Below, in pieces: positions 15,605 through 52,096 of a DNA stretch of 64,000 nucleotides (within the stretch, counting starts at the first letter, position 1; each line of letters begins with the position of its first letter). The DNA comes from Allomuricauda sp. (GTDB taxonomy: Bacteria; Bacteroidota; Bacteroidia; Flavobacteriales; Flavobacteriaceae), in contig NZ_JACESV010000006.1 in assembly GCF_013911645.1 (NCBI RefSeq), forward strand, positions 62,001 through 126,000, given 5' to 3'. Both the position numbers and the translations under genes were made by a program. The notes beneath the pieces were generated by a model that worked only from the letters and a program-made list of their open reading frames with translations, was not told the DNA's origin and ran no database searches.

Positions 15605-16001
15605 GGGGCCGACCGGTTTTGACAGCAAGACCAATGGCGATGTAAGCATGTCGAGCGCTGGGATATAGCTCGTAAATCTCATGTTTCACACTTTTAATTG
15701 GCGAAAATAATTACGCTCTTGCCGCATAATCTGAATTATAGTAGGATGTGCCTCGTCCCTACAAGGTAGGGAAGCGAGATGTTCCTGAATAGCCCTTGTT
15801 GACGGCGATTCGTTTAGGAGCACCAAAAAAGTCAACACAAGGGTGTCCGTTCGCTTTGGCGACACCTCTAAAACCTAAAGAAGCTAAGTGTATATTAGGC
15901 CGTATCTGGTCAGGTATGCATCGAAAATTAAGCAGATACTAAGCATGTAGAAAGCATGGTTATTGCTTGTTTGGACGAGGGTTCGAATCCCTCCGGCTCC
16001 A
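15605..16001 (+). ncRNA. ssrA: tmRNA (ssrA)
   Basis: It rescues stalled ribosomes. The 5' end GGGGCCGACCGGTTTTGACAG and the 3' end with GGTTCGAATCCCTCC and CGGCTCC form the tRNA-like acceptor stem (GGGGCCG pairs with CGGCTCC, one G-U) and T-arm. The internal reading frame at 15700-15729 encodes GENNYALAA and a stop, the tag type of Flavobacteriia, so the resume codon is GGC. CCA is not encoded and must be added. The 3' end is the probable attachment site used by the adjacent integrase element. A hairpin terminator lies 26 bp downstream. Confidence 0.95.
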
Positions 16002-16027
16002 CTAGAACACCATCAAAACACAACAGC

Positions 16028-34183: not shown

Positions 34184-34633
34184 CTACAACAGCCCTTGAT
34201 CGGCAAAACTGAAGTAGTCCCCATTGGGGGCGATGATGATATGATCGAGGACCTTGACATCGAAGAGCTGGGCGGCTTTTTGAATCTTTTGGGTAATGTC
34301 CCGATCCGGTTGGCTGGCCTGCAGTTTCCCACTGGGGTGGTTATGGGCCAGCAGGATTCCTACGGAAAGGGTCTTGAGCACTACGGCAAAGAGGATCCGC
34401 AGATCCACCAAAGTTCCCGTGATCCCGCCCTGTGAGATTTGGTAGATGCCCTTGACCTTGTTGCTATTGTTGAGCAGGACGATCTTAAAGGATTCGTGTA
34501 CGGCGATTGTATCGGTATTCCATGTTTGGTAAAGCAGTTCCGCAGCATCCTTGGAGGATTTTATCTGTTTCCAAAAGGGGGCGGGGATGCGTTCTTTGTA
34601 TCGGATATGGATTTCATTGACTTGTGTTCCCAT
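34184..34633 (-). CDS. RadC-type JAB domain protein
   Basis: The 149-aa protein consists almost only of the JAB/MPN metalloprotease-like domain: HNHPSG with His97 and His99 and Asp110 ten residues on complete the JAMM motif. The N-terminal helix-hairpin-helix half of chromosomal RadC is absent. Short RadC proteins are typical of mobile elements; their role is unresolved. It lies 81 bp downstream of ssb on the same strand. Confidence 0.85.
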   Translation of the reverse strand: MGTQVNEIHIRYKERIPAPFWKQIKSSKDAAELLYQTWNTDTIAVHESFKIVLLNNSNKVKGIYQISQGGITGTLVDLRILFAVVLKTLSVGILLAHNHPSGKLQASQPDRDITQKIQKAAQLFDVKVLDHIIIAPNGDYFSFADQGLL

Positions 34634-34714
34634 GATGATGGTATTAGGGTGATAAAAAAAGAGGGCGGAACTGGGTTGATTGCCCCACCCTCTTAAGGCA
34701 TCGACCTGACCGCA

Positions 34715-35140
34715 TTAGGCGGTCTTGGCCGTTTTGGAGCTCTTGGCCTTGGCAGGCGTTTTAGGCGTATTTCCCTTTTGGGGAGTTGGCTCGGCTTCTT
34801 GGGATTCCTTGCCTCCCAAGAGCAGGATCTCGGTGGCCACGATCTCGGTCACATAGACCTTGACATCCATCTCATTGGTATAGCTTCGGGAGACCAATTT
34901 CCCCTCGATGGCAATTTCCTTCCCTTTGTGGGCGTACTGTTCGATGACCTCCGCCCTTTTGTCCCAGGCCACCACGTTGTGCCACTGGGTGGATTGTACC
35001 TTTTCCCCTTGGGCGTTCTTGTAATACTCGTTGGTGGCCATGGCAAAGCGTACGGTCTTGCTACCGCTTTCCAGTACGGCCACTTTGGGATCGTTTCCGA
35101 TGTTCCCGATCAATTGGACTTTGTTTCTCAATGTACTCAT
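34715..35140 (-). CDS. ssb: Single-stranded DNA-binding protein, element-encoded
   Basis: The 141-aa OB-fold protein begins MSTLRNKVQLIGNIGNDPKV and has FAMATNEYYKNAQGEKVQSTQWHNVVAW and GKEIAIEGKLVSRSYT, all standard SSB blocks. The C-terminal tail is Lys/Thr/Pro-rich and ends KSSKTAKTA instead of the acidic DDDIPF-type tip used to recruit host partners. Together with the JAB and mob genes this marks it as the mobile element's own SSB. Confidence 0.9.
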   Translation of the reverse strand: MSTLRNKVQLIGNIGNDPKVAVLESGSKTVRFAMATNEYYKNAQGEKVQSTQWHNVVAWDKRAEVIEQYAHKGKEIAIEGKLVSRSYTNEMDVKVYVTEIVATEILLLGGKESQEAEPTPQKGNTPKTPAKAKSSKTAKTA

Positions 35141-36173: not shown

Positions 36174-37175
36174 CTAATCCAATTCATTTTTAAAAGATCG
36201 CGAAACCGGAATACTGGTTTTCTCCATAAGCGTCAATGAATTGTAACTTCTTTGTTTAATAAAATTTATATTCACAAGATAGGATCTGTGGCATTGTATA
36301 AAATTTGGGGGCAGCTCTTCCTTAATTTGGTGAAGTTTCCCCCTCACATAATGGTTTTTACCATCACTGGTAAAGATATTTAAGTAGTGGTCATCGGCTT
36401 TGATATACATCAAGTCACTTATATATACTCTAGCCTTATCCTTGAGGACAATATGATTTTTAATGACTATTCTTTTTAATTCATCAATCTTTTTTGAGGA
36501 CTCTCTTTGGTCTATTTCAAGGTTCTTGAAGCGGACACCCAAAATGGCAGCAAAAACTACGGCTTCCAATAAGGCACCTACATACAAAAAGAAGGATGCA
36601 TGAAGGCCAAATCGGTCCTCAAAACCATCGAAGCCATAAAAAATCTGAGCCAAGTAGGACAAATTAGCGAAACAGAAGAATAATAGGGAACCAAAAACAA
36701 ATAGGGTAGCCACCTTTGTTTTCAACCTCAAAAACTTGACATAACTGACTAGAGCAAAAACTGAAAAAAGAGGGGATAATAACATGAATGCATGTTTTTG
36801 CGCACCATGTCCCCAAATACCCAACAGGAAAACCAGAATAAAGATTCCTAAAACTAAAATATTCCTAGCCCAAACCAATACCTTATCCCATTGCGGTATC
36901 TTTTTAGGGGTATCAAGCAGTGCCCGCGCAAAGGATATATAAAAAATATAGGTGGCCAGATGAACACTGGGGCTGCTCATGATATGTATGTTCCTGTACG
37001 GACCAGGCAAAAGGCCTTGACCCAAAAAAAAGAGAAATAAGAAAAAAAAATAAAGGGAATAATATAAAAATTGCTGGTTCCTATTAATCAGGAAGATAAT
37101 TAAATGGTAAAAACTAAGGATAAAAATTGATCCTCTGAGGTAGTTATAAAAATTCGAGTAAATATCCCCTAGCAT
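36174..37175 (-). CDS. Seven-helix membrane LytTR transcription regulator
   Basis: The 333-aa protein has about seven membrane helices in its first 215 residues, of the 7TMR-DISM kind without the extracellular sensor domain. A short coiled-coil linker (NLEIDQRESSKKIDELKR) leads to a C-terminal LytTR domain (about 248-333) with LMYIKADDHYLNIF and NFIQCHRSYLVNINFI. It lies 25 bp downstream of the FN3 lipoprotein gene on the same strand, so it may be co-transcribed with the surface-protein operon. Confidence 0.85.
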   Translation of the reverse strand: MLGDIYSNFYNYLRGSIFILSFYHLIIFLINRNQQFLYYSLYFFFLFLFFLGQGLLPGPYRNIHIMSSPSVHLATYIFYISFARALLDTPKKIPQWDKVLVWARNILVLGIFILVFLLGIWGHGAQKHAFMLLSPLFSVFALVSYVKFLRLKTKVATLFVFGSLLFFCFANLSYLAQIFYGFDGFEDRFGLHASFFLYVGALLEAVVFAAILGVRFKNLEIDQRESSKKIDELKRIVIKNHIVLKDKARVYISDLMYIKADDHYLNIFTSDGKNHYVRGKLHQIKEELPPNFIQCHRSYLVNINFIKQRSYNSLTLMEKTSIPVSRSFKNELD

Positions 37176-37200: not shown

Positions 37201-37863
37201 TTAAAATTCCACAGATATACTATTGCTTGAAAAGTTACCGTTTTTATCATAGGCGATAACCTTGAAATAATACATGGTATTTGGTTCAATAGCTGTAGTG
37301 GCGGATGTTTGGTCGGTTTCTGAGATTAATTCATCAGGTGGGTCATTTAGTGAAAAGAACACGTTATAGTAATTAATGTCATTATCCAAATCCGTGCTCT
37401 GCCAAGAAAGTGTAACAGTATTGTCTCCATTGTTATTTACTCCCAAGTTGGGTGGAAACGGAACATGGTTCTCTTCGGACAACCCTTCAGTATAAAAGGT
37501 GAATTCCTCACTGGTTTTGGAATTGCCGAACCCATCGGCTACAGTTATCTTCCACCGATATAATGTTCCAGGCTCTAAATCTAAGATAGTCGAAGACGCC
37601 CCTGTCAATTCTGTAAATTGTGTCCCTGCTACAACATCCTCATATTCCAATAAAAATGAGTTTACACCTTCCACATCTTCCCAGTCTAGTTGCACACTTA
37701 TCAGCCCCGAAGCCAATTCTGTACCCAAACATTGGGAGTTGTTTTCCGGTAAAAGCAGGGTAACTGCTTGCAAATCTACATTGGTTTCGAACTTTCCTTC
37801 ACAACCTGTCAAAAGGATGAAGAATAAACTAACGATGATAGTATTCCTATAATATGAACCCAT
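37201..37863 (-). CDS. Fibronectin type III-like lipoprotein
   Basis: The 220-aa protein has a lipobox leader (FFILLTGC, Cys20). Two FN3-like beta-sandwich repeats follow, each with the LYRWKITVAD / MYYFKVIAYD type strand and an N-terminal VTLSWQ or VQLDWE strand. The start at 37863 was chosen because it lies after the stop of the upstream giant gene and leaves a proper lipoprotein signal. It is the last structural gene of the surface operon. Confidence 0.78.
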   Translation of the reverse strand: MGSYYRNTIIVSLFFILLTGCEGKFETNVDLQAVTLLLPENNSQCLGTELASGLISVQLDWEDVEGVNSFLLEYEDVVAGTQFTELTGASSTILDLEPGTLYRWKITVADGFGNSKTSEEFTFYTEGLSEENHVPFPPNLGVNNNGDNTVTLSWQSTDLDNDINYYNVFFSLNDPPDELISETDQTSATTAIEPNTMYYFKVIAYDKNGNFSSNSISVEF

Positions 37864-37867
37864 GAAT

Positions 37868-40800
37868 TTATTCTTTAACAATTTTAAACGACTTTATAGC
37901 ATCCAAGCTATTTGATTGGATTAAGTAAACACCACTTGGTAGGGTTGACAGGTCGATGGACGCCTTTCCTGAAATTATCTCCAACTCAACTTGTTTGACC
38001 ATTTGACCACTCAGCGAGTAGATATTTAGTCTCCCTTTTTCATCTGAAGTAAACCCTTGGAAATTCAGTATGTCAACCACTGGATTTGGATAAATAGAAA
38101 TATCTCCTATCTGGATTATTTCTGCATAAATCCCTTGACAATCGGAAGAACCCGATATACTAATTTCATTTTTACCTTTCTCCACCGGCACCGTTAGAAT
38201 TTCTTTCCCAGTGCTTTCCATACTGAAACTATATTGTTTTTGGTTTACATAAACTTCATATTCCTTACTTCCATCTACTATAAATCGGGCCTTCAGGTTC
38301 CTTGAATCTATACCTTGGGTCGTGGCCGATATACGATCGTATGTTTTAATCTCAACTCCAAAGCAACGTTCAAAATCTGGGAGTTCACCAGTTGTAATAC
38401 ACACTTGATAACTTCCTTGGGCCAAATTGGTCGCGACATAGTCATTGCTAAAATTCGCTGTGCCCACTGGATTACCATCCAAACTTACTTCGAATGTATA
38501 CTGCTCGTTATCGACGCTTACTTCAAAACTACCATTGCTCCTGTCAGGACAAGTTTCACTCAGTACCAAAACGGAAATATCTTCCAGCCCAATGTCCAAT
38601 CCAGTTTCTGGACAACCATTTTCATTCGATATACCTGCCTCAAGTGGGCAATTATCCATACTGTCGGGAACACCATCATTATCATCATCCAAATCAGCAT
38701 TATTTCCTGTTCCATCGCCATCGGTATCCGTGTCCTCACTGTCATCCCTAGGAAAAGCATCCTCCGTGTCTGGTATGCCATCACCATCATCATCCGTATC
38801 ACAGAGATCTCCAATACCGTCACCATCCAAATCAGCTTGGTCAGCATTTGCCGTGTTAGGACAGTTATCTACTACGTCAAGAACGCCATCGTTATCAGAA
38901 TCCGAACCATTTGCAGCGTTATTATCGATTATCTGCCCCTTTACTTGTGACACCGGAATAGTAATATCCGATTCGTTGGTTGTTATTTCAACAATAAAGG
39001 TCTCAACTTCTTCCTCAACAGTGTCGTCTATAATCTCAATCTCAAAAGTTGCCGATGATTGTCCAGGTTCAATAAATACGGTATTGCCGATTTGGTTTTT
39101 TAGCCCATTTATAAAATCAGTTCCCAATTCCGCAGATGTCCCACTTGCACTTTCAGACAAAGACACATCAAACCCAAGACTATTTTGTGTGCCATTAGTT
39201 GCACTATTTCCATTATCATCTCCCAAGCCCAAAGCGAATATGGCATCTTGAAGACCTTCTGCCCCATCTTGGATTTTCGTCAAGATAATATGGTTGTCAT
39301 TATCGGCTATCCCCAATTGGGCACTCGGCAGTAACCCATTTATGTCCACAAAATAGCCATCCCCTTCTTGTATTTCCAATCCAACCGATTCCAGACCTTC
39401 AAAAATCATGTCATCTATTGCACTGATTGAAATTTCCGTGGAAGACTGCCCATTGGGAATAATCCTATTTCCACTTAGGCTGAAATCGGTTCCTTGCTGA
39501 GCTGTACCGATGTCCAACCAATTCAATTGGATGTCCTGCCCGCTAGTATTGGTCAAGGCATTCCCATTCCCGTCAGTGAGCGAAATGGTAAAAACTGAAG
39601 GAATGCCATTTTCATCGATGTTGTTTCCAGCGGCTACCTCAATTCGGAAATCATCTTCAATAACATTGTAAGTGTAAGTGAAGGACAAATCCCCTGGAAC
39701 TAATGGGAGTTCAGTAGAATTCGATGTCACTTCCAACACAATGGATTCATTTCCTTCTATTTCGGTGTCGGCTAATATAACCAGACCCGGAACAGGAATT
39801 GGATTGTTGCCATCATAGGTTTGTGCAGGTATTTGAATGGTAAGTGGTTGCCCATTATTAAATTCATAGTCTGAACCTGCAACGGCAGGATTACTGAAAG
39901 AAGCATTGCTGGTCACATCCGTAATTTGAATAGTTGTTGGAATGGTCACGGTACCATTTAGTACCAATTGTGGATTTGGAAAAGCAAGGTCTTCGAGCAT
40001 CGACTCACTTGAAACCAAAAATGCTACACTAACTTGGTTGGGGGCAGCAGAACAATCTTCCAAAAATTGTGTCCCCGCATCATACTGCCAAGTTGATGAG
40101 ACATTGCCCACGGTGGCCCCATCAACTTCAACGCATGATAAATCCGGGAAATTGCCCGTAATGATAACATCACTGATGTTTCCATTATTTCCATTTTTTA
40201 AATTTAATGAGGTTAATGGTACACCTCCGTTCGTACCATTGTATGCCAAAAATATTCTGTCAATATTTGGACAAGCGGAAAAATCCAACGAAGTAATCCC
40301 TGTGTTCTCGCCCTCATATGTAGATAGACTACTGGATGTTCCACCGTCTTGCAAACTTGTAAGGTCTAAGGTAGTAAGGTTGGGGTTATTTCTAACGCTC
40401 AGCGTTTCTAAGGTTGTAAGATTCGTGATGTCCAGACTTGTCAAATCATTGTCCACTACGGAAAGCCGTTCCAAGTCTCTTAAAAAAACAGACAAGGGCA
40501 AATTTTGCAAGTTGGGATTCCCTTCGATCTCAACATTGACCAAAGCCCTATTGTTCAACTGTAAACCATTAAAGGTACCAAGTGACGTCCCTGCGACTCT
40601 CAGGGTTTTGAGAAGAATATTTTCATCCAATTGAAAACTGGTAAGTTTTGGTAAATTCTCTACAATCAAATCAGTTGCCCTGATATCAAAAATCGTCAAA
40701 TCTTCAAGGTTGGACCTATTTTCCACGGCAAAAATAGTTAGGTCCTCCCCTGCCACTTCCATGGAGGTCAGTGGAGAATCATCTGCCGGTAATACCAGGT

Positions 40801-43800
40801 TCGAAATAGTATTGAATCTAAGGGAAAGGTTTTCTAAAAAATCATTGGTCGATAGGTCCAAAGAAGTCAATTGGGTTCCCTCAATTGCCAGAAACCTGAT
40901 ACCGGTATCAGAAACATTGAGACTGCTCAAGTCAGGATGGTTCAAAAGGAACAATGATGCCAGAGGATTTGAACTCACATCCACGCGTTGAAGCCTTGTA
41001 TTGAACTCCAAGTTTAAATCAACAATACCATTTCCAAAGACCTCCAGTACCTCCAATGCCACATTGTTGACCAGATTTAATGCATTTAGACTACAGGCAT
41101 TGGCGTATAGTTCCCTGAGTTGAAGGTTTTGGCTCAAATCTATGGTGCCCAGATTGATTTGGTTAACGTTCAGAACCTCCAAATCGACAAAATCCTGAAT
41201 TCCCTCCATGGAATTGATGAACAAGCGCTCCACATTGACATTGGTCACCCCAACTAGGGCCGAAGTGAGCACCCTGCCATCGTTCGGGGTGGCATCAATC
41301 CCTTGATCGACCAGATACTGTTCAAAAACAGTATCCGGAATCAAGGTGTACTCGGATGTACAATTGGCTTGGTACGAGGCCATATTATCTTTCACCCAAC
41401 CCGTGGGCGATGTTCCAACTATTGAAGCATCGACCTGTATACAACTCAAATTGGGGTTGTTCTCCAGTTGAAGGCTTGTTATCGAGCCATTGAAGCCATT
41501 TTGAACATTGGCCTCTGTTAATGCACCATTATAACTGTTGTACGCGCTTAGCCTTGTCATATTTGGATTATTGGAAATATCAATTGTTGTTAAACCAGAC
41601 CCATAGGTTTCCAATATCTCTAGAGCAGTTAAACTGCTCACATCGATATTCGAGAGCGATTCATTCAGTTGCACCCCTAAATAAGTTAAATTAGGCACGC
41701 TGCTTAAATCCAAATTGGAGATACCGGAATCGGCCAAAAGCAAGGATGTCACATTTTGTTTTCCCGTAAGGTCTAAGGAAGTAAATTGGGTTCCCCTTGG
41801 TACCAGGGTTATATCCTCTAAAAGATTATTAGTACTTATGTCCACCCCACTCAATTGGGGAGCATTTATAATGGATAGACGTACCAGGTTTGGATTTCCC
41901 GAAAAATTGATTTGTGGCAAGGAGGCCGCTTGATCGTTAATTAAGCTGAAATCTTCCAGTGCCGTAAAGTCCTGTATTCCTGCAAAACTGGATATATTGT
42001 AATCAGAGATATCCAATGTCGTTACTGTATTGATGGATGCCGTAGGTACCCTACCGTCAATGGTAGGGTTTGTGTCAATTCCTTGATCGATTAGGTATTG
42101 CTCAAATATAGGATTTGGAATTTCAGTATATTCAGTAATGGATGTATCCACGAATATCTCTGAGGACAAGGAAACCCTATTTCCGTTTTCAATGCCCGTA
42201 CCACTAACCAATAGTTTTGAAGAATCAACTAATTGAACCGAGTTGAGCTCTACATCATTGAGTCCAAAGCTTTGCTCCAAAATACCGTTGTTGGCAAATG
42301 AGGCGTCCATTGTTCCTGTATCATCAAATACAGCAACAAAACCATTGGTGCCGCTTGTACCTACGACGGCGAATTTATTTCCTGCCAAATATTGAATTTC
42401 ATAGGCGCTCAAGTTTGCATTGGCAAGCCCCAGATAGAGGTATGAGTTGGTGCCAAAGGAATTGTCCGGTGTGCCATCTGAATTGTATTTTCTCACCTTT
42501 ACCCTATTGCCCGATATATTCTCATTACCCAAAACCAAAAAACTACCGTCATCGTAAATGATGAAATCCATTGCATTGTTGGAACTTGCGGTATAGATAT
42601 CCGATGCCAAAAAATTGGTATCTTCAACACCATTGGGATTAAACTTTTTGAGAGCAAAAGTTCTGGATGTACCATTGATCAATTCACCACTCACATAGAT
42701 GTTCCCATCATTTCCCGTTTTAATTTTTGAGGGAACAAAGCGCCCACCGGAAATAGTTGGCCTTACTATGCCATTAGTGCCAAAACCAGTATCCAGAAGC
42801 CCTGCATTTGTTCCCTGTCCCAAATAACGGGCGATAACAAATTCCGAATCACTGGTTCCTGCCACCACTAATTTTGTTTGGCCATTATCTTCCATGGCCG
42901 TAACGGATGAGGCAATATCATTGCTTCCATTGTTGATATCAGTCTGGACGATATCATTTATTGACCCACCAAAATCTATACGTGTGAATGCCCCGTTTAT
43001 GTTTTCCGTAAGTCGGGCCAACATAAAATCATTGTCACCATTGGTGTTGATCACGCCGACACCTATTAAATGTTCATCAGAAGATGCACTACCAGAGTTA
43101 TCTTGGTAATATGCACCATGGTTCAGCTCCAAATCGACCAGGGTGGTCGCGATTTCGCCTATGTTCCCAATTCCACCTACACTAGGATTTACTGCTTGGA
43201 TGTATTTATATCCGGTCAACGGTTGCTCACTCACTGCTATTACAGGAAATGGGTATGGAGTACTTCCTCCGGATCTCTTGGTCAGAATACTTTTGATAAT
43301 CTTATGTTTAGGTTCCAGTATATATCTTCCAGAACGGTTGCCAAAATTTGGATCGGGCTGGGTATTGGATTGCAACCTGATCATAGTCAATGTGAACGTA
43401 TACCCACTTGTGGAGTCATAAAAGTCAGCTGTACTACTGTAACCTACCCCAAGCACTTCGGCATTATCCATTTTGAATCCCTTGACCAAAAAATCTTGGT
43501 GGCCTAAAAAATCAAAAGGCTCTGATACGCCATCAGGGCTAAAGGTATTGACCAACCCACCATTAGGCCCTACTTTTCGAAAATGAAAATCATTCCATCT
43601 GTTATCAGAACCATAGTATAAAATTTCTCCGTTGGCATAATCCAGAAAATTGTCTTGAATACTGTTAATGGAACTTCTGAAAATAGAAAAACCGGAGTTA
43701 AATCTCCCAAAATCGCCATAGCTCATATCATAATCTCCAAGATTTGTATTGTACCGTCTTAAAGTCCCGCCATAACCGACCATGATACCATTTGGGCTAT

Positions 43801-44581
43801 AAATCGCTGCTCGTTCACCAATATCAAAAGGACCGGAAAATAAATCGCCTGTATGTTCAATTATTGATAATTTCCAATTTCTTATACCAGATGGTTTATG
43901 CACAACTGCGTAGCCACCTACTCCGTTAAAAGTTTGCTTGTCAACTGAGCTTATAGATCCTACTAATTGGTCGGTAAGGCCATCATCCGAAAAGGTAGGG
44001 TCAAACTCACCATTTGCAGTCAGCTTTAAAAGATAGCTGCCACCTCCGCCTCTTCTATTTAGCGGAACAACAATCTTATAATTTGTAGGAAAGGCAATGG
44101 GACTCAGAGCCAATCGGACGTCCTCGGCCAAATCTATTGTAGTCGTACCATTTACCCCAAAGGAAGTATCCAACTTGCCTTGTGGGTTATATTTTACAAT
44201 TTGTGGGTTGTTCGCCTGATCTTGTATTCCAACCACAAAAGAGCCATCGGGAAAAGCATCGAGATATTGTGCTGTAAGTCCATTGGCGATATCGACGTCA
44301 TTAACCACAACCATACCATTGATTCCGAAATTTTGATCTAAGGTACCGTTATTATTAAATCTTAAAACAACTTCAAGGTCTCTGTTGAAATCATTAAATT
44401 GACCAAGCACGGTTATCATATAATTTTCATAGGCAGCATCATAGGTGGTGAACCTAATTTCTTTTAAAAATTTGGTGACCACTCCATTAGCACCATAATT
44501 GGGGTTCAGTTCCCCAGGGGTCTGGCTGCTTCCTGTGTAGGAAACAAAAATCAATAGGATAAATAGTAGTTGTTTTTTCAT
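37868..44581 (-). CDS. Giant T9SS-exported surface protein: delta-60, LRR, Calx-beta-like, TSP3 repeats
   Basis: A 2237-aa secreted protein with a signal peptide (1-19). In order it carries delta-60-type repeats (about 25-830; DxxFGxNG motifs such as LDTSFGVNG), and two leucine-rich-repeat blocks (about 840-1500), each opened by FEQYLIDQGIDT or FEQYLVDQGIDA. Then come Calx-beta-like modules (about 1540-1900), Asp-rich thrombospondin type 3 repeats (about 1910-2000, DSDNDGVLDVVDNCP) and a final SprB-like region. A C-terminal type A sorting domain ends it (NPVVDILNF ... LPSGVYLIQS). It is expected to be exported by T9SS and attached to the cell surface, as an adhesin or glycan/protein binder. 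Confidence 0.88.
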   Translation of the reverse strand: MKKQLLFILLIFVSYTGSSQTPGELNPNYGANGVVTKFLKEIRFTTYDAAYENYMITVLGQFNDFNRDLEVVLRFNNNGTLDQNFGINGMVVVNDVDIANGLTAQYLDAFPDGSFVVGIQDQANNPQIVKYNPQGKLDTSFGVNGTTTIDLAEDVRLALSPIAFPTNYKIVVPLNRRGGGGSYLLKLTANGEFDPTFSDDGLTDQLVGSISSVDKQTFNGVGGYAVVHKPSGIRNWKLSIIEHTGDLFSGPFDIGERAAIYSPNGIMVGYGGTLRRYNTNLGDYDMSYGDFGRFNSGFSIFRSSINSIQDNFLDYANGEILYYGSDNRWNDFHFRKVGPNGGLVNTFSPDGVSEPFDFLGHQDFLVKGFKMDNAEVLGVGYSSTADFYDSTSGYTFTLTMIRLQSNTQPDPNFGNRSGRYILEPKHKIIKSILTKRSGGSTPYPFPVIAVSEQPLTGYKYIQAVNPSVGGIGNIGEIATTLVDLELNHGAYYQDNSGSASSDEHLIGVGVINTNGDNDFMLARLTENINGAFTRIDFGGSINDIVQTDINNGSNDIASSVTAMEDNGQTKLVVAGTSDSEFVIARYLGQGTNAGLLDTGFGTNGIVRPTISGGRFVPSKIKTGNDGNIYVSGELINGTSRTFALKKFNPNGVEDTNFLASDIYTASSNNAMDFIIYDDGSFLVLGNENISGNRVKVRKYNSDGTPDNSFGTNSYLYLGLANANLSAYEIQYLAGNKFAVVGTSGTNGFVAVFDDTGTMDASFANNGILEQSFGLNDVELNSVQLVDSSKLLVSGTGIENGNRVSLSSEIFVDTSITEYTEIPNPIFEQYLIDQGIDTNPTIDGRVPTASINTVTTLDISDYNISSFAGIQDFTALEDFSLINDQAASLPQINFSGNPNLVRLSIINAPQLSGVDISTNNLLEDITLVPRGTQFTSLDLTGKQNVTSLLLADSGISNLDLSSVPNLTYLGVQLNESLSNIDVSSLTALEILETYGSGLTTIDISNNPNMTRLSAYNSYNGALTEANVQNGFNGSITSLQLENNPNLSCIQVDASIVGTSPTGWVKDNMASYQANCTSEYTLIPDTVFEQYLVDQGIDATPNDGRVLTSALVGVTNVNVERLFINSMEGIQDFVDLEVLNVNQINLGTIDLSQNLQLRELYANACSLNALNLVNNVALEVLEVFGNGIVDLNLEFNTRLQRVDVSSNPLASLFLLNHPDLSSLNVSDTGIRFLAIEGTQLTSLDLSTNDFLENLSLRFNTISNLVLPADDSPLTSMEVAGEDLTIFAVENRSNLEDLTIFDIRATDLIVENLPKLTSFQLDENILLKTLRVAGTSLGTFNGLQLNNRALVNVEIEGNPNLQNLPLSVFLRDLERLSVVDNDLTSLDITNLTTLETLSVRNNPNLTTLDLTSLQDGGTSSSLSTYEGENTGITSLDFSACPNIDRIFLAYNGTNGGVPLTSLNLKNGNNGNISDVIITGNFPDLSCVEVDGATVGNVSSTWQYDAGTQFLEDCSAAPNQVSVAFLVSSESMLEDLAFPNPQLVLNGTVTIPTTIQITDVTSNASFSNPAVAGSDYEFNNGQPLTIQIPAQTYDGNNPIPVPGLVILADTEIEGNESIVLEVTSNSTELPLVPGDLSFTYTYNVIEDDFRIEVAAGNNIDENGIPSVFTISLTDGNGNALTNTSGQDIQLNWLDIGTAQQGTDFSLSGNRIIPNGQSSTEISISAIDDMIFEGLESVGLEIQEGDGYFVDINGLLPSAQLGIADNDNHIILTKIQDGAEGLQDAIFALGLGDDNGNSATNGTQNSLGFDVSLSESASGTSAELGTDFINGLKNQIGNTVFIEPGQSSATFEIEIIDDTVEEEVETFIVEITTNESDITIPVSQVKGQIIDNNAANGSDSDNDGVLDVVDNCPNTANADQADLDGDGIGDLCDTDDDGDGIPDTEDAFPRDDSEDTDTDGDGTGNNADLDDDNDGVPDSMDNCPLEAGISNENGCPETGLDIGLEDISVLVLSETCPDRSNGSFEVSVDNEQYTFEVSLDGNPVGTANFSNDYVATNLAQGSYQVCITTGELPDFERCFGVEIKTYDRISATTQGIDSRNLKARFIVDGSKEYEVYVNQKQYSFSMESTGKEILTVPVEKGKNEISISGSSDCQGIYAEIIQIGDISIYPNPVVDILNFQGFTSDEKGRLNIYSLSGQMVKQVELEIISGKASIDLSTLPSGVYLIQSNSLDAIKSFKIVKE

Positions 44582-44592
44582 TTCGACTTGAT

Positions 44593-45594
44593 TTATTGAC
44601 TACAGTCAGTATCTCCTTGGTTAAAGTCAGTTCTTACAACGGTCCCCGTTGTTCTTAGGTTCCATACCTCTTGGGGCAAACATTTCAAAACATTGTTTCC
44701 AGAAAGGTTTAAAAGTGAAAGATTATTCAGGCTTGCGTATTCAGAGGGTACACTTCCAAAGAAATTGACTTGTAAGGCCAGCGTCCCCAATTTTTGTAAA
44801 TTTCCAATTCCTACTGGAAGCGTCTCCAATTCATTAAAAGGTATAGTTAGAAATTCGAGGTTTTGTAAGAGGCCGATACTTTCAGGAATAGTGGTGAGTT
44901 CATTTTTTTCAAGTGTTAACCATTGTAAAGAACTTAGGTTTCCGATGGTTTGTGGAAGCTTAAGCAAATTGTTGGAATTAAGATCCAAATATTCCAAACG
45001 GGCCAAATTGCCAATGGATTGAGGAAGTTCAGTTAGTAGATTGTTTTGAAGGGTAAGTCGAGTAAGGTTTTCCCAGTTGCCAATGTCGGCAGGTATGTCA
45101 ACAAGTTGGTTCTCAGTTGAACTGAACTCTTCAATTAAGGTCCAATTACCAATACTTTCCGGTAAACTGGATAAGTTATTTCTATCCAAATAAGCTGTTT
45201 TAATTTTTGTTAGCTTTCCTATTTCATCAGAAATGTATGTTAACTGATTGTCGGCTAAGTCCAATAACTCCACTTCAGTAAGAACTCCTATGGATGAGGG
45301 AATGATGGACAAATCTTTAAAAGACAGATCAAGAACTACAACTCTATATGCTGTTATGTCTGCGCCTGAACCACTTGCGGTTGCTCCAACGGATATTAAA
45401 AATTGAAATATTGAAGAATCTATGTTATCCCACCTCGGATCGGAAACATATAGGTTATTGGCTTCATAAATTGCCTTTAATGCTTGAACATCTTCAAATA
45501 GCCCTGCATTTTCAGAGGGTGGTGAATCATCATTTGCAGTATCACAAGAGATAGCTATTAATAAAAGGACAAAAAATAGTTGTATTTTTTTCAT
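44593..45594 (-). CDS. Leucine-rich-repeat lipoprotein
   Basis: The 333-aa protein has a lipobox (LLLIAISC, Cys17). About eight to nine typical 23-residue LRRs (consensus LPxSIGNLxxLxxLxLxxNxL) span residues 100-310 and resemble the bacterial/plant-type LRR horseshoe. The N-terminal part has an LRR-cap helix (DVQALKAIYEANNL). Such lipoproteins usually bind proteins at the cell surface. It lies 11 bp upstream of the giant gene. Confidence 0.85.
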   Translation of the reverse strand: MKKIQLFFVLLLIAISCDTANDDSPPSENAGLFEDVQALKAIYEANNLYVSDPRWDNIDSSIFQFLISVGATASGSGADITAYRVVVLDLSFKDLSIIPSSIGVLTEVELLDLADNQLTYISDEIGKLTKIKTAYLDRNNLSSLPESIGNWTLIEEFSSTENQLVDIPADIGNWENLTRLTLQNNLLTELPQSIGNLARLEYLDLNSNNLLKLPQTIGNLSSLQWLTLEKNELTTIPESIGLLQNLEFLTIPFNELETLPVGIGNLQKLGTLALQVNFFGSVPSEYASLNNLSLLNLSGNNVLKCLPQEVWNLRTTGTVVRTDFNQGDTDCSQ

Positions 45595-45605
45595 AGTTTA
45601 GTTTT

Positions 45606-46094
45606 TTAATCAATTCTTATCAACCCTTCAGCATTACCTATGAAGAATTCCAAATCATTGGCGTTCAATTTGAAAACACGCCCGGAAAATTCGAACACGG
45701 TCGCATTCTCGCTAACATTAACAGTACCTTCTTTGAAATAGGCGTCTTCGTTAATGCTCAATAGGTCCGCATGGAAAAAAGAAATATCCACATACTCACA
45801 TTCCCCATTTACAATACTATAACGGTCATCCTGTAAGTTTTCATTGTCCGATGCAATTTCCAATTTCATTGAATTTTCTCCATCAAAACCATTGTAGTTA
45901 AAACCAACAGTGCTGAAATATCTGAAACAATCTGTGTCGAAAGTGGATTCATAAGACTGGAACAGGTCATCAAACTCGAGAATCTGGGAAGTTGCTGTGA
46001 TTTCAATATAGTTGACAAGGTCTACTTCGGTGCTTTCTGTACAAAGCGATAGAAAGAAAGTAGTGGATAAAATGGCTATAGATGAGAGTTTCAT
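45606..46094 (-). CDS. Secreted hypothetical protein of surface operon
   Basis: The 162-aa protein has a signal peptide with a Cys at its end (FFLSLCTES), so it may be a lipoprotein. The rest is acidic and beta-rich. The start at 46094 follows the stop of the upstream gene (46106) and gives a clean leader; a longer frame would overlap that gene. No family is recognised. It lies between two LRR-protein genes in the operon. Confidence 0.7.
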   Translation of the reverse strand: MKLSSIAILSTTFFLSLCTESTEVDLVNYIEITATSQILEFDDLFQSYESTFDTDCFRYFSTVGFNYNGFDGENSMKLEIASDNENLQDDRYSIVNGECEYVDISFFHADLLSINEDAYFKEGTVNVSENATVFEFSGRVFKLNANDLEFFIGNAEGLIRID

Positions 46095-46105
46095 GAATGT
46101 GATTG

Positions 46106-49100
46106 TTATTGTTTGCAATTGCCGCTTGTCAGTTCTTCAAAAGTTGGATTGTATAGATTATTAGTAATTATTGAATTATTACTTAGGTTTGTGAAATCAG
46201 TTTTTAAATCACAGTAATCATTGAGCAGTGGATTACGATACAACAGTAATGTTGTTAAATTTAGATTGCTCATTCCATCTCCTAGTCCTTTTAAGGAGGT
46301 AAGATTAGAATTGTCGTTTAGAGCTAAATATTCAATGTTCCTAATGGAATTTAGTCCCTCTAGATTAACAACCTTTCCGCAATTGGCTAGTCTAAATATT
46401 TCTAATTCTGACAGGTTTGATAGTGCTCCTAAATCATTAAAACTTTCACAATTTTGAACGCTAATAATATTAGGGCTCAGATTACCAATACCTACTAGAT
46501 TTTTGATTTTTGAGCAATCACGGATAGATAAACTACCCAAATCAGATATACGGTCTAAGCCATCAATTGTTTCAAGTTCAGTACTGTTAATAATAACAAG
46601 TGAATTTAGGTTCGAAAGACTATTGAAAAATGAAATGTTGAGATCCCTTTGTTGTATTTCGACTAAACTTATACTTTCCAGAGAAGTAATTGAGTTGGAA
46701 TTTAATATAGAGTTAATTCCATTAAAAGCTTCGTAATTAGGAGAATCAAGGCGTAATGAGTTAAATGACGCTTTGTTATTGAAAAGTAGGTTTTCTAAAT
46801 TTCCTTCAACCCAAAAAGAATCGAAGTTAATAGTGTTGTTTGTATTAATAAATAGTTTGTTCACATTGGCCAGTCTGATTCGATCTATACTTTCTATGCC
46901 ACTTAAAAAATTAATATTTAAATCAGAAATATGGTTTTCTATCCATACTGAGGTTAATTTAAAATTTGTTAGTTCTCCATAAACAGAAATATCCTCTAAA
47001 ACTGGATTTTCAGTAACGTGTATAGATGATTCTGAGACTATGGAATTATTATATGCTGTTTTTAGAATACTAATGTTATTGAGACTATTGAAAATTTTTA
47101 ATTTAGGATTATTGTGAAGGTTAAGGCTTCCAACAGCTATTGCCGGATAGTTTTCTAAGGAATTGAAAGCATTGAAAATTTCTAAATTAGGTTGATTTTC
47201 GATTTTGAAACTTATAAATGGGGTAGATGCGTTGTTAGCGTTATTTGAAGAAGTTTCAAAACTCATAAATGTTTTTATCTCTTTGACATTGTTGAATGAA
47301 TTGATTTCAACGATTTTAGGATTATGGCTTCCATATAAAAAGCCATCTATAACTTCTCCTCCTGGCAGGTCACCAATAATTCTCTTAAGATTTTCATTAT
47401 TATCAATTAATACTATCCCTTTGAATTCTTCAAGTGAATATAAATTTTCAAAATTTAAGACCCCTCCATTATACCCTGATACAATGATTTCATCTAATTG
47501 CTCAAGACTTGCCAATGCACTTGTTGGAGTCCAATTTGAAGGCAAATAATTTTGAATTTTTAGTGAACCTATTTCCTTAATTGAGTTTAATGGCGTAAGG
47601 TCTACATTTTCTGTACTGGTAAAGGCTAATAACAAATTGCCAACCTTATTAATAGAGCTACAAGACAAGTCAGTAATATTCTCGTTGGTCACAATTAGGT
47701 TTTGGATTATTCCTTCTGTTATTTCGAATTCACCTAATTCACTCTCAGCATATAAGTCATCACTGTCATTATCATTTGTCTTAACCTTCCAATAATATTT
47801 TTTCCCTACTTCTACTGGTGTGTTATTGACAAAGGTGATTTCATCTGGATTATCAGAATAATTGTATTCAATTGAAGCATCCATCTTCATTTCCTCAGGA
47901 CTCTCTCCTATAAATAATTCATAAACTATTATGTCCTCATTTTCGGAATCGGAATCTATGCTTTTTCCAATTTGAAATTCAATTTGACAGATTGTTGGAT
48001 TGATTGATAAAAGGCCATTGGTTATGCCATCATTTATATTCGGACTTATTAAAGTTGCTGCACTGGGCGCCACAGGCTCATAGAACCCAGTAGAGGTAAA
48101 CTCACCCACGGCATATTGATCCGTCTCTTCATTGCTGTTTTCCTTGTGGTAAACCTTAAGGTAATGGTTGTTGTCTCCTCTTTTTGGGGTCTCATAATTC
48201 AATAAATAAATGCTATTGGCGTAATTTTCAATTTCGGTTTGTATCAACCCAAAGTTTTCATTGACACTTCCAATAGTTTCAGATGGGAAATAGAAGTACT
48301 CACCAAAAAGATTTTTGATATTGTCTTCATCCAAATCTGCACTACTTAAACCTACGACATAAGCGTTTTTATCGATAAGTGCTTCTTTGGCTGCTGTGAA
48401 GGTATTGCTCGCCTGGGTATCATCCCCATCGGTGAATATGATTAGATTACCAACAGTCACTTCATTCTCAACAAAACCATTAGTGAAGGAATTTGCAGCG
48501 GTCACCACAGCTCCATAAAAATCGGTGGAACCAGTTCCCAATTGTAGATTGTCAATAGTACCTTTCAGCTGTTCCTTATCTGTTGAATAATCCTGTACCA
48601 GCTCGGTTGTGGAGGAGAAAGTATAAATGGCTATTTCCTGGAAAGGCAAAGCCCCATCAATTAAAGTCTTAAGTTCTTCTTTTAGCGTTACAAAGTCAGT
48701 TTGTATGGAATTTGAAACATCTATCAAGAGTGCCGTTCTCATTTCTAATTCAAAGGAATTTCTATCGAACAAGGTCGCCTTGGATTCATCGATCGGACTT
48801 TCTTCATCATTTTCGGTAATACGCAAATCTTCAATCATTAAATTGGGCACACCTCTGAACATACTATCAGAAACTTGAAATAGCACGTTCACATCAAAAG
48901 GGTCAGCAGTAGAAGTTTGATAGGTTGTGAACCGATAAAAATCCGTAGGAGCAACTTCTTCACCCGAGTCACTGTTATTGCCTGAATCATCTGGGTTATC
49001 TATTACTGTTTCTTCGTCATCATCCAATACATTTTCATCAATAGGGGTTTCTGTTGTAGAACATCCTATTATTAAAAACAATGTCAAAAACGGTATCAAT

Positions 49101-49132
49101 TTGTGCAATGGGGCGCAGTAATTTTTTTTCAT
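46106..49132 (-). CDS. VWA-domain lipoprotein with leucine-rich repeats
   Basis: The 1008-aa lipoprotein (LIIGC, Cys24) has an acidic linker and a von Willebrand A domain (about 130-310). Its metal-binding MIDAS is complete: Asp138-V-Ser140-N-Ser142, Thr in GTGSTDFY and Asp in IIFTDGDD. An FN3-like region follows, then irregular leucine-rich repeats of the receptor L-domain type (about 490-1000). VWA domains bind ligands through a metal ion, so this is a probable two-domain surface adhesion or recognition protein. Confidence 0.85.
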   Translation of the reverse strand: MKKNYCAPLHKLIPFLTLFLIIGCSTTETPIDENVLDDDEETVIDNPDDSGNNSDSGEEVAPTDFYRFTTYQTSTADPFDVNVLFQVSDSMFRGVPNLMIEDLRITENDEESPIDESKATLFDRNSFELEMRTALLIDVSNSIQTDFVTLKEELKTLIDGALPFQEIAIYTFSSTTELVQDYSTDKEQLKGTIDNLQLGTGSTDFYGAVVTAANSFTNGFVENEVTVGNLIIFTDGDDTQASNTFTAAKEALIDKNAYVVGLSSADLDEDNIKNLFGEYFYFPSETIGSVNENFGLIQTEIENYANSIYLLNYETPKRGDNNHYLKVYHKENSNEETDQYAVGEFTSTGFYEPVAPSAATLISPNINDGITNGLLSINPTICQIEFQIGKSIDSDSENEDIIVYELFIGESPEEMKMDASIEYNYSDNPDEITFVNNTPVEVGKKYYWKVKTNDNDSDDLYAESELGEFEITEGIIQNLIVTNENITDLSCSSINKVGNLLLAFTSTENVDLTPLNSIKEIGSLKIQNYLPSNWTPTSALASLEQLDEIIVSGYNGGVLNFENLYSLEEFKGIVLIDNNENLKRIIGDLPGGEVIDGFLYGSHNPKIVEINSFNNVKEIKTFMSFETSSNNANNASTPFISFKIENQPNLEIFNAFNSLENYPAIAVGSLNLHNNPKLKIFNSLNNISILKTAYNNSIVSESSIHVTENPVLEDISVYGELTNFKLTSVWIENHISDLNINFLSGIESIDRIRLANVNKLFINTNNTINFDSFWVEGNLENLLFNNKASFNSLRLDSPNYEAFNGINSILNSNSITSLESISLVEIQQRDLNISFFNSLSNLNSLVIINSTELETIDGLDRISDLGSLSIRDCSKIKNLVGIGNLSPNIISVQNCESFNDLGALSNLSELEIFRLANCGKVVNLEGLNSIRNIEYLALNDNSNLTSLKGLGDGMSNLNLTTLLLYRNPLLNDYCDLKTDFTNLSNNSIITNNLYNPTFEELTSGNCKQ

Positions 49133-49134
49133 AA

Positions 49135-50484
49135 TTATTTTCTTTTGTAATGTAGAGGCGCCTTAAACCCCATATAAAAATTCGCTGTTTGGGTACTTGT
49201 TGTCAATACGTTTCCTAGAATACTTCCTGAACCTAATATCAAGGGGCCGAGTTTTACCCCAACGCCCATACTGTACTTGCCCAAAGTGCTATAGCCAATG
49301 GGCAAATAAAATCCCAGTTTTCTTCGTTCAAAACGTGGTGTTAGGGAGATTAGGTTTAATCTATTGTTATTAAAGAATTTGTCTTTGTTGACCAAAGTTT
49401 GGTTTACATCCAAATTCAAATACAGGTCCGAGGTGAATTTATAGTCAATGTTCACATTGAGGGATGTGGGCAATGCCGTGGTAACATCTCCTGAATCGCG
49501 TATTTCCGGAAAGTTGTCCTCAATGGCCAAGATGATGTCATCTTCGGCAGCTGCTACATCAATTGCACCATTCAAAACGTAACGTTCTAGCACAATATCT
49601 CTATAGGTAATCGCGCCAAAATCCAAAAGGGAAACTCCTAACTTAAACCTGTAGTTGTTTACGGCATCTGGATTTTCCCGGCCATTGAAGGATTGGGAAG
49701 AGCGTGTCCTAAATTCATATACAAACCCAATATCAAAACCAATGCCTGGAGCCAAATTTCTAAAGAGGTCATGATTCTCCAGCGTATCTTCAACATTGGA
49801 AGTATTTGAAAAATCACCGTTAAGCTCAACGGTTTGATTGTCCATATTAAGACTTCCTGATAATTGTGTAGAGTATACTTGTGAAAAACCAAAACCTGCC
49901 AAGAATTTTACGGTTATTCCACCTTTTAAAAAATTCCTGTTGCGGTCATCAAACAAAATTCTCCCATAACTCACACCGATTTCGGCCCAAACGTGTGAAG
50001 TACCATCAAAATCATTTTGTTGGAAATCGAATTCGGTATCCGGAAACCCATCAAGCAAGGCTTCAAAAAATTCTCCATTGAAATTAAGATAGTTGTTTAT
50101 GGCCCTTACTCTTGTGATCAAACCAATGCTTTGGTTTTGTTTGAACTTGAACATAAAGGAGGGTCCCAAAACCTCTAAGTTCGCCAGGAGGTTGTTGCTG
50201 TCGGAAGGATTTTTATCCAGCCCCAAGAAATCACTGCCCTCCACGAACTCGCTGATGTTGTCCAAGGATAGGCTTACATAATCATTGGCCCCGAGGACAC
50301 TCAGTGAAAATAAATTGATGTCGGCCCTGATTCTTGCATCTGCAATGTTCCCGGGATTGCTCAGAACCCCGTGAAGGCCACTATAATTGTCGGTATTGAA
50401 ACCTAAATACGATTGGCCATATGTTGCAAGACTTATGCCACCTATCAAGAAAAATAGTTTCATCCTAAGGACCGCTGTATTCAT
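49135..50484 (-). CDS. DUF5723-family outer-membrane protein
   Basis: The 449-aa protein has a signal peptide (1-23). It begins with the family-typical SYLGFNTDNYSGLHGVLSNPGNIADAR and continues as a beta-barrel of PorV/FadL type to the C-terminus (FYMGFKAPLHYKRK). DUF5723 proteins are outer-membrane barrels linked to surface-protein loci in Bacteroidota. It is the first gene of the surface operon, 2 bp before the VWA gene, and may anchor or help display the secreted partners. Confidence 0.85.
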   Translation of the reverse strand: MNTAVLRMKLFFLIGGISLATYGQSYLGFNTDNYSGLHGVLSNPGNIADARIRADINLFSLSVLGANDYVSLSLDNISEFVEGSDFLGLDKNPSDSNNLLANLEVLGPSFMFKFKQNQSIGLITRVRAINNYLNFNGEFFEALLDGFPDTEFDFQQNDFDGTSHVWAEIGVSYGRILFDDRNRNFLKGGITVKFLAGFGFSQVYSTQLSGSLNMDNQTVELNGDFSNTSNVEDTLENHDLFRNLAPGIGFDIGFVYEFRTRSSQSFNGRENPDAVNNYRFKLGVSLLDFGAITYRDIVLERYVLNGAIDVAAAEDDIILAIEDNFPEIRDSGDVTTALPTSLNVNIDYKFTSDLYLNLDVNQTLVNKDKFFNNNRLNLISLTPRFERRKLGFYLPIGYSTLGKYSMGVGVKLGPLILGSGSILGNVLTTSTQTANFYMGFKAPLHYKRK

Positions 50485-50647: not shown

Positions 50648-51340
50648 TTATAGGAGTAGAAAAGCCCTAGCCACTTTCTCAAGGTCGGTTCTTTTAGTTG
50701 TGCCCAACTTTAAAAATATGTTTTCGCAGTGTTTTTTGACGGTCTTTTCCGATATGAAGAGCGAATGCGAAATCTCCTTCCTTGTTTTTTCCTTGCCCAG
50801 TTCAGCCAAAATTTCCTTCTCCCTGGACGTAAGCGTATTAAATTGGGTGAAGTATTTGTTGATAATCTTATTGATACCAAATAACTGGTTTACCTTGTTG
50901 GTCAAGTATTCAATATCATTGGGGAAAAGTGAGATGGAAATAAGTTGGTTTTCATTTAAAATCTTGGTCGAAGTAAAATGGTATATATGGTTATCGTCCT
51001 TATGGTATTGCCAATCTTGAAAGAAAGGGACAACCTGGTGAAAATCATCCTTCGCCAGTTCGGTCATTAATTTTGGATAAACGATTTCACGCGTATGTTT
51101 ACTTTGATGTTTTTCAAAAATTGAAGCGCCCATTTCCTCCAATTCCTCAAGGGAGTAGCGTAAGATTTCTTGTCCCCTTTTGGAAATATACTCTATGGCT
51201 AAATCCTCTTTAGAATTAACATGCATTATTCCCGGAATTATATCCGAAAGGTCATCCAGCGATATCGTTCCATTATTGATGAGTTTACTTAACTTGAATA
51301 ATTGTTTCGGTTGATCGTTTAAAAATTCCTTTTCAGTCAT
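50648..51340 (-). CDS. PAS-like/LuxR-type transcription regulator, copy B
   Basis: The 230-aa protein has an N-terminal PAS-like sensing domain (about 25-140) with DLSDIIPGIMHVNSKEDLAIEYIS, and a LuxR helix-turn-helix (about 165-230) with LTSREKEILAELGKEKTRKEIS and the DNA-recognition helix ISEKTVKKHCENIFLKLG. It is very similar along its whole length to the next gene upstream. Both lie upstream of the surface operon on the same strand and are likely regulators of it. Confidence 0.85.
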   Translation of the reverse strand: MTEKEFLNDQPKQLFKLSKLINNGTISLDDLSDIIPGIMHVNSKEDLAIEYISKRGQEILRYSLEELEEMGASIFEKHQSKHTREIVYPKLMTELAKDDFHQVVPFFQDWQYHKDDNHIYHFTSTKILNENQLISISLFPNDIEYLTNKVNQLFGINKIINKYFTQFNTLTSREKEILAELGKEKTRKEISHSLFISEKTVKKHCENIFLKLGTTKRTDLEKVARAFLLL

Positions 51341-51406
51341 TTACTAAAAAAATTATGAATTATGAGATACAATTCGGTTATGATGTACTTATCAAAAAAG
51401 TTGTTT

Positions 51407-52096
51407 TTAAAGTAACCGAAAGGCATCAGCGATTTTCTTGATTTCAGTTCGTTTACTTGTACCCAATTTCTTGAAAATATTTTCACAGTGTTTTTTAACT
51501 GTTTTTGGGTCTATGAAAAGCATTTGGGAAATTTCCTTTCTCGTAAACTCTCTACCGAGATAATTAACTATTTCCTTTTCTCTTTTAGTGAGGAACAAAT
51601 ATTGCTGATAATACCGCTCAAATATTGCATTGATTCCAATAATAGCGTTTACATTTTTAGATAATTCTTTTATTTTTTGAGGAAATAGAGTAATGGAAAT
51701 CAATTGATTATCATTAAGTATCTTACTGGTGGTATAGACTAAAAAAGGATTGTCGTCTTTATCATGTCTCCAATCTTGGAAAAAAGAAACTGAATTATCA
51801 TTTTCATCCCTTGATATCTGTTCAAAGAGCTTGGGATAGGTAACATTCAAAGTATAGTCACTTTGATGTCTTTGAAGCACCTCTGCACCCAACATATCCA
51901 ATTCTTCCATTGAATACCTTATGATATCTTGTCCCGTTTTGGACATATACTCCAATGCCAAATCATCACGGGAATTAATATGTAACATACCTGGAACTAT
52001 TTCAGATAGGTCATCTAAGTCCAACAGACCTTTCTGAATCAATTGACTTATTTTATAGAGTTGTTTGGGCTGGTCGCTCAGTTCTTTGTGAATCAT
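51407..52096 (-). CDS. PAS-like/LuxR-type transcription regulator, copy A
   Basis: The 229-aa protein is a paralogue of the following gene: the same DLSEIVPGMLHINSRDDLALEYMS sensing region, the same LTKREKEIV...LGREFTRKEIS and IDPKTVKKHCENIFKKLG helix-turn-helix, and the same C-terminus AFRLL. The sensing domain contains no obvious cofactor-binding residue. An inverted repeat TACTCA/TGAGTA at 52147-52163 lies about 50 bp upstream of the start and may be an operator. Confidence 0.85.
   Translation of the reverse strand: MIHKELSDQPKQLYKISQLIQKGLLDLDDLSEIVPGMLHINSRDDLALEYMSKTGQDIIRYSMEELDMLGAEVLQRHQSDYTLNVTYPKLFEQISRDENDNSVSFFQDWRHDKDDNPFLVYTTSKILNDNQLISITLFPQKIKELSKNVNAIIGINAIFERYYQQYLFLTKREKEIVNYLGREFTRKEISQMLFIDPKTVKKHCENIFKKLGTSKRTEIKKIADAFRLL

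Follow-up and report, generated by a model that had tools for sequence, protein, structure and literature searches.

A candidate two-gene cassette for retaining type IX secretion cargo on the cell surface in Flavobacteriaceae

We examined a 64,000-nucleotide stretch of DNA from Allomuricauda sp. (RefSeq assembly GCF_013911645.1, contig NZ_JACESV010000006.1, positions 62,001 to 126,000 of the forward strand; hereafter the window), in which a minus-strand operon encodes a giant predicted cargo of the type IX secretion system (T9SS). The giant carries an unnamed module of about 160 residues, here termed Cmod, ahead of its type A sorting signal, and the product of the gene directly downstream is a lipoprotein bearing two FN3 domains. 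The analysis points to a general two-gene cassette through which the giant would be shown on the cell surface, with the FN3 lipoprotein retaining the cargo; we regard this account as probable, if only modestly so. The cargo gene and its partner are arranged as follows.

37868..44581, minus strand: T9SS type A cargo of 2237 residues, with delta-60, LRR-like, Calx-beta, TSP3, Cmod and sorting-signal segments
38105..38596, minus strand: Cmod, the cargo half of the pair
37871..38104, minus strand: type A T9SS sorting signal of the cargo (TIGR04183, 4.4e-14)
37201..37863, minus strand: FN3 lipoprotein with two FN3 domains and lipobox LTGC, the partner half of the pair (fn3, 7.5e-14)

Whole-protein scanning of the giant identified TIGR02608 (delta-60, 2.3e-26), Calx-beta (4.5e-8), TSP_3 (3.7e-17) and TIGR04183 (2.7e-11), the last scoring 52.2 bits against a cut-off of 23; the N-terminus was hydrophobic when read by eye. 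Cmod, at residues 2001-2160, matched at 4.5e-46 a profile built with this locus included. The lipoprotein gene follows the cargo after a gap of 4 bases, and its product matched the lipoprotein profile at 2.7e-61.

The first iterative profile detected Cmod in 85 open reading frames (ORFs) of the loci then gathered, with the FN3 lipoprotein mostly encoded by the next gene. In the final locus set Cmod was present on 141 ORFs, representing 114 unique sequences, and the lipoprotein gene lay directly downstream in 107 of these 114 (105 by ORF calling, plus L170 and L200 by an all-frame search). The distance from cargo to lipoprotein ranged from -14 to 34 bases, and a 4-base overlap was observed in 72 of the 105 pairs obtained by ORF calling. 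Part of the 114 loci were gathered via lipoprotein matches, and the sets gathered with Cmod or with a metalloprotease provide fairer counts. Retrieval with Cmod only revealed the lipoprotein downstream in 30/30 loci from 30 other genera (one by all-frame search). Within the window's own genome, the lipoprotein followed 3/3 type A Cmod cargos and 0/8 other matches to the signal model, two of the eight being below the model cut-off; six Cmod matches were found there at 1e-8, and the three strong ones and L045 were examined. Cmod was detected at E <= 1e-8 in 131 of 199 genomes of the family, with a best match below 1e-24 in 100 (hand count). A sample of the phylum, for which fewer candidates were scored per genome than in the family search, gave Cmod at 1e-12 in 21 of 345 genomes: our own, 19 more from its family and one further genome of its class. 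Loci from this sample entered the final locus set. Every genome of the genus (71/71) contained a match to the lipoprotein at 1e-6. By these counts the Cmod/FN3-lipoprotein pair is widespread across Flavobacteriaceae, whose members are mostly marine. One locus (L131:6291-16395) contained two successive cargo/lipoprotein pairs, the first lipoprotein being enlarged to 626 residues.

Cmod cargos differed greatly in the rest of their sequence. Ten proteins were scanned, nine of them Cmod cargos, and the only parts common to all nine were Cmod and the signal. The bodies comprised a reprolysin metalloprotease, a Vps10/BNR propeller, an alpha-amylase with CBM48, GH123, FG-GAP with SprB repeats and a haloperoxidase-like protein; two more had TSP3 and little else, and one had the signal alone. 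On this evidence the pairing is independent of the cargo body.

The metalloprotease provided a natural experiment. Relatives of the Cmod metalloprotease of our own genome were collected (the best 80 of 95, in 78 loci), the named genera among them including Flagellimonas, Allomuricauda, [Muricauda], Maribacter, Cellulophaga and Robiginitalea. Whenever the metalloprotease carried Cmod, the FN3 lipoprotein was encoded by the next gene (63/63), 62 times by a 4-base overlap and once after 2 bases. In contrast, the lipoprotein was present in 0/13 loci that lacked Cmod and had downstream DNA; two further loci of this class, 15 in all, were cut by the contig or locus end and excluded (L304 and L306). 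An all-frame search of these 15 loci and the eight own-genome controls gave single-domain FN3 matches only, none of them downstream of a cargo. Seven of the 13 had a type B signal (TIGR04131, 4e-17 to 5e-21) followed by a PorP/SprF gene (TIGR03519, 7/7), and six had a plain type A signal, no partner and a next gene on the opposite strand. At the level of gene content, the presence of the lipoprotein depends on Cmod, and the pair exchanges with the type B signal and PorP/SprF.

The sequences of Cmod and of the lipoprotein were also examined. Scanned separately, the window Cmod matched no Pfam family over cut-off, and no convincing relative was found among solved structures (best 7e-4). Four cysteines were present in 82 of 105 Cmod sequences, two in 21 and five in 2, and residues C16, G109 and C153 were invariant in 27 sequences. 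Under a crude rule, two-cysteine Cmods occurred with a lipoprotein of the GEPC type in 13 of 21 cases and with other forms in 8. An in-house pattern identified a lipobox in 105 of 106 unique lipoproteins, the exception having a serine-cysteine start outside the pattern. The mature lipoprotein contained exactly one further cysteine in 95/105, invariant in 26 aligned sequences, and two or more acidic residues within positions +2..+8 in 66/105. Divergence of the two partners was compared over 103 unique pairs, after lipoproteins outside 200-270 residues and signals outside 55-110 residues were dropped. Cmod and lipoprotein diverged together (rho 0.88), while 500 shuffles reached at most 0.23. Half-modules of Cmod correlated with the lipoprotein at 0.80 and with each other at 0.67. 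The sorting signal, used as a control, gave 0.34, with its own two halves agreeing at 0.12 (saturated). A read-through chain of Cmod, signal and lipoprotein from L154 was modeled with AlphaFold2 (83 alignment rows, 7 with both halves) and yielded a pLDDT of 91.3 and a pTM of 0.50. A Foldseek search with this model returned, in its top 50 rows, Ig/FN3-type and complement-type proteins at a TM of about 0.3 or less.

We propose that the T9SS would export the cargo and the sorting signal would be cleaved off, while Cmod would stay on the mature protein and bind the FN3 lipoprotein. With the lipoprotein placed in the outer face of the outer membrane, the cargo would be kept on the cell and not released. 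We infer that surface retention by a dedicated lipoprotein represents a third T9SS 'address'. The lipoprotein would replace the known anchor, since PorP-like proteins are reported in the available portion of PMC9143113 to anchor type B cargo at the surface. As a guess, the hold between cargo and lipoprotein could be a disulfide bond, given the one further cysteine of most mature lipoproteins and the two invariant cysteines of Cmod.

Several observations weigh against this account. Among the seven of the 114 Cmod sequences counted without a downstream lipoprotein, L076 combines a type A signal with a strong Cmod and shows no lipoprotein gene within 1.5 kb downstream. L045 and L128 are divergent Cmod matches on type B cargos, and in L045 a PorP/SprF gene takes the place of the lipoprotein. 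Of the other four, the L057 cargo is followed by a gene encoding 314 residues that is not the lipoprotein, and L189 and L191 matched Cmod at 1e-16, the sequence of L189 ending without downstream DNA. The seventh is the second cargo of L126 (L126:5456-12993), where two Cmod cargos flank a single FN3 lipoprotein, upstream of the second; this lipoprotein may serve both. The acidic residues lie mostly +4 to +8 past the lipid cysteine, beyond the surface-export positions given in the accessible text of PMC5080379, where a polar or K residue followed by D/E stands close to that cysteine, which leaves it uncertain whether the lipoprotein is surface-exposed. Correlated divergence would also result from close linkage, and the sorting signal is a poor control for it because its halves agree at so low a value. 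Binding lacks structural support, since the placement of the domains is of low confidence despite confident domains. Finally, PorP/SprF partners are also required for secretion of their cargo, according to the part of PMC12618676 available.

The last point bears on an alternative role for the FN3 lipoprotein, as a periplasmic escort that would hold Cmod until the cargo reaches the T9SS and would be required for export, not anchoring. Escort fits the same pairing counts, agrees with acidic residues off the published surface-export positions, and is favored by the frequent 4-base overlap, which suggests coupled synthesis. However, a plain type A signal without any such gene is seen in other type A cargos, metalloprotease relatives included. 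PorP/SprF in the same position is reported to stay with its cargo at the surface, yet it is also needed for secretion, so this comparison separates the two roles incompletely. We prefer anchoring because PorP-like proteins in the same position are reported to hold cargo at the surface and because the lipoprotein is absent next to plain type A cargos; an escort role is unlikely, but carries some weight.

The pair forms one end of a larger gene set. The initial annotation described six tightly packed genes: those for a DUF5723 barrel, a VWA-LRR lipoprotein, a small secreted protein, an LRR lipoprotein, the giant and the FN3 lipoprotein. ORF lists and domain scans confirmed all six on the minus strand. 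The remaining genes are listed below.

49135..50484, minus strand: DUF5723 protein of 449 residues, first gene of the operon (PF18990, 1.5e-33)
46106..49132, minus strand: VWA - LRR-like lipoprotein of 1008 residues (VWA_2, 1.8e-9)
45606..46094, minus strand: small protein with a lipoprotein-type start, LSLC (start reassigned by eye)
44593..45594, minus strand: LRR lipoprotein of 333 residues (LRR_14, 2.3e-25; LRR_8, 6.3e-19)
36174..37175, minus strand: 7TMR-DISM + LytTR membrane regulator (LytTR, 1.7e-19; 7TMR-DISM_7TM, 2.1e-14)

Two start codons were reassigned by eye, placing the start of the FN3 lipoprotein at ATG 37863 and that of the small protein at ATG 46094, which corrected the intergenic gaps to 2, 11, 11, 11 and 4 bases in order. 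The small protein, previously called secreted, then has an N-terminus resembling a lipoprotein signal. The 7TMR-DISM + LytTR gene begins 25 bases past the FN3 lipoprotein gene on the same strand and is probably the last member of the operon. The reported metal site of the VWA domain held up, with its DVSNS motif at residue 138. LRR modules had been assigned to three proteins: Pfam matches were strong in the 333-residue lipoprotein only and below curated cut-offs in the giant and the VWA protein, and the three showed no mutual BLAST similarity at E 1e-3. A middle stretch of the VWA-LRR protein resembled one FN3 lipoprotein (1.4e-6), and the protein gave no match to the FN3-lipoprotein profile at E 1.

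The six products had been suggested to form one surface complex, its VWA and LRR parts recognizing another cell, a host or a polymer, and co-occurrence of the genes in other genomes was one of the checks named for it. The gene set did not co-occur. The VWA-LRR protein had no full-length relative among 71 genomes of the genus and 199 of the family. In the genus, matches were found in 6 of the 71 including our own, the other five in the C-terminal part only at 24-36% identity; in the family, 5 of 199 genomes matched including our own, three in the VWA part and one in the C-terminal part. A contig scan with the same protein gave 34 pattern matches and no relative among them. The small lipoprotein matched 1 of 249 genomes, its own, and none of the 248 others. 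A conserved six-gene system was therefore rejected, as the VWA-LRR and small-protein genes are not retained alongside the others.

A smaller frame was kept. The best relative of the giant was a 2047-residue protein of genome G221, 43% identical over residues 1382-2236. The G221 locus (L054) encodes, in order, the barrel (DUF5723, 50%), a 468-residue protein without Pfam match, the cargo (41% to the giant over 854 residues), the FN3 lipoprotein (53%) and LytTR (49%). Genome G242 (L111) has a DUF5723 protein (30%), a 1812-residue cargo and an FN3 lipoprotein (27%) directly together. In these three genomes, on which the comparison rests out of the 71 of the genus, the predicted barrel - cargo - FN3 lipoprotein frame is kept and the genes between are exchanged. 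The G+C content agrees with this, being 0.336-0.372 in the three variable genes versus 0.392-0.413 in the barrel, cargo and FN3 lipoprotein genes. These three variable genes, for the VWA-LRR, small and LRR lipoproteins, seem to have been added later. Genes downstream of the operon also differ between the G221 locus (L054:1-3506) and the window (34184-35140), so the cassette may move as a unit.

A surface assembly therefore remains likely, with a conserved core that differs from the six-gene VWA/LRR set. Within it, the DUF5723 barrel would be a membrane partner, and the VWA-LRR, small and LRR lipoproteins are probably binding modules of the same structure. A single complex of all six products is compatible with the cassette and is consistent with one strand, gaps of 2-25 bases and several lipoproteins with binding-type domains. 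We consider it distinctly improbable, as neither the VWA-LRR nor the small protein is retained beside the others, G221 having the 468-residue protein instead and G242 nothing, and as the G+C content sets the variable genes apart. Finally, that the pair are linked genes with separate jobs, the FN3 lipoprotein being an independent, co-regulated binding protein, would suit the lack of a confidently predicted complex and a correlated divergence explicable by close linkage alone, but is very improbable given that Cmod and lipoprotein stay while cargo bodies change completely and that the metalloproteases have the lipoprotein exactly when they have Cmod (63/63 vs 0/13).

A PDB sequence search at 0.01 gave no match for the DUF5723 protein, and a literature search on DUF5723 found nothing. 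Its AlphaFold2 model was barrel-like (pLDDT 75.7, pTM 0.74). The best Foldseek matches were TodX/TbuX/FadL (E 3.3e-8, TM about 0.47), and the model also matched 8gl6_F, a chain of a T9SS complex, at 2.5e-4. PorV is a FadL-like outer-membrane protein. The predicted fold may resemble that of FadL-like outer-membrane proteins such as TodX and FadL, at a TM of about 0.47 or less. In our own genome, a DUF5723-OmpA protein is encoded 364 bases upstream of the type B cargo with PorP/SprF (L045:1121-9253). A 710-775-residue form of DUF5723 was found in 41 of 71 genus genomes (hand count), and a form of about 490 residues is widespread there too.

Further scans concerned the surroundings of the operon. 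No match to TIGR04131 (type B signal) or TIGR03519 (PorP/SprF) was detected at 0.1 among nine window proteins scanned. An anti-phage defence system known to PADLOC was rejected, with 0 profile matches at 0.01 for 6 proteins. Promoter, terminator and TAnnTTTG scans gave sites no commoner than in shuffles. Directly upstream of the operon (50648-52096) lie two LuxR-type regulators in tandem that share 56.5% identity; the matching place in G221 holds a shorter LuxR-type protein (113 residues), alike over about 43 residues only. Elsewhere the window contains a tmRNA gene (15605-16002; tag GENNYALAA) and an ORF of 1800 residues (56887-62289, minus strand).

No description of the cargo/lipoprotein pair was found in the open-access literature searched, which does not prove its absence from print. 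The word 'fibronectin' had 0 uses in the main text of the T9SS papers PMC12618676, PMC9143113, PMC10202324 and PMC10994853. In the portions available, PMC11674741 reports FN3 domains within a cargo and no partner gene, and PMC7712824 one FN3 protein in a table. PMC6414381 was rejected as an account of the pair, its available part dealing with another lipoprotein. According to a review, the choice by PorU between released and attached effectors "remains to be unravelled" (accessible text of PMC10202324), and recent work concludes that either outcome, static anchoring or release, is supported by a type A signal (likewise PMC12618676). Cmod with a matching lipoprotein would answer this question for many Flavobacteriaceae cargos. 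A module readable from sequence would predict cell-retained enzymes and offer a surface-display tag, and the proposal would give FN3 lipoproteins of a widespread group a possible role.

Among known systems, the pair recalls type B cargo with PorP/SprF (SprB-SprF, PG1035-PorP), where a dedicated outer-membrane partner gene directly follows the cargo and is tied to its C-terminal part; the same position is occupied in relatives of one metalloprotease. In contrast, the cargo described here has a type A signal and a separate module before it, and the partner is an FN3 lipoprotein rather than a beta-barrel. Type A cargos joined to anionic lipopolysaccharide (A-LPS) by PorU/PorV/PorQ/PorZ, such as gingipains, share the TIGR04183 signal; however, the lipoprotein goes with Cmod and was missing from those type A cargos in our set that have no Cmod. 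The SprB repeat (PF13573) matched 13 of 27 Cmod sequences weakly (best 3.8e-6), whereas the window Cmod had no match over cut-off; the AlphaFold2 chain model from L154 shows additional strands beyond one SprB repeat, and Cmod comes with a partner gene of its own. The neighbourhoods of TANFOR polymorphic toxin genes are reported to be enriched in SprB-repeat, FN3 and TIGR04183 domains; the portion available of PMC7073777 describes enrichment only and no cargo/lipoprotein pair, and some of these neighbourhoods may contain the pair.

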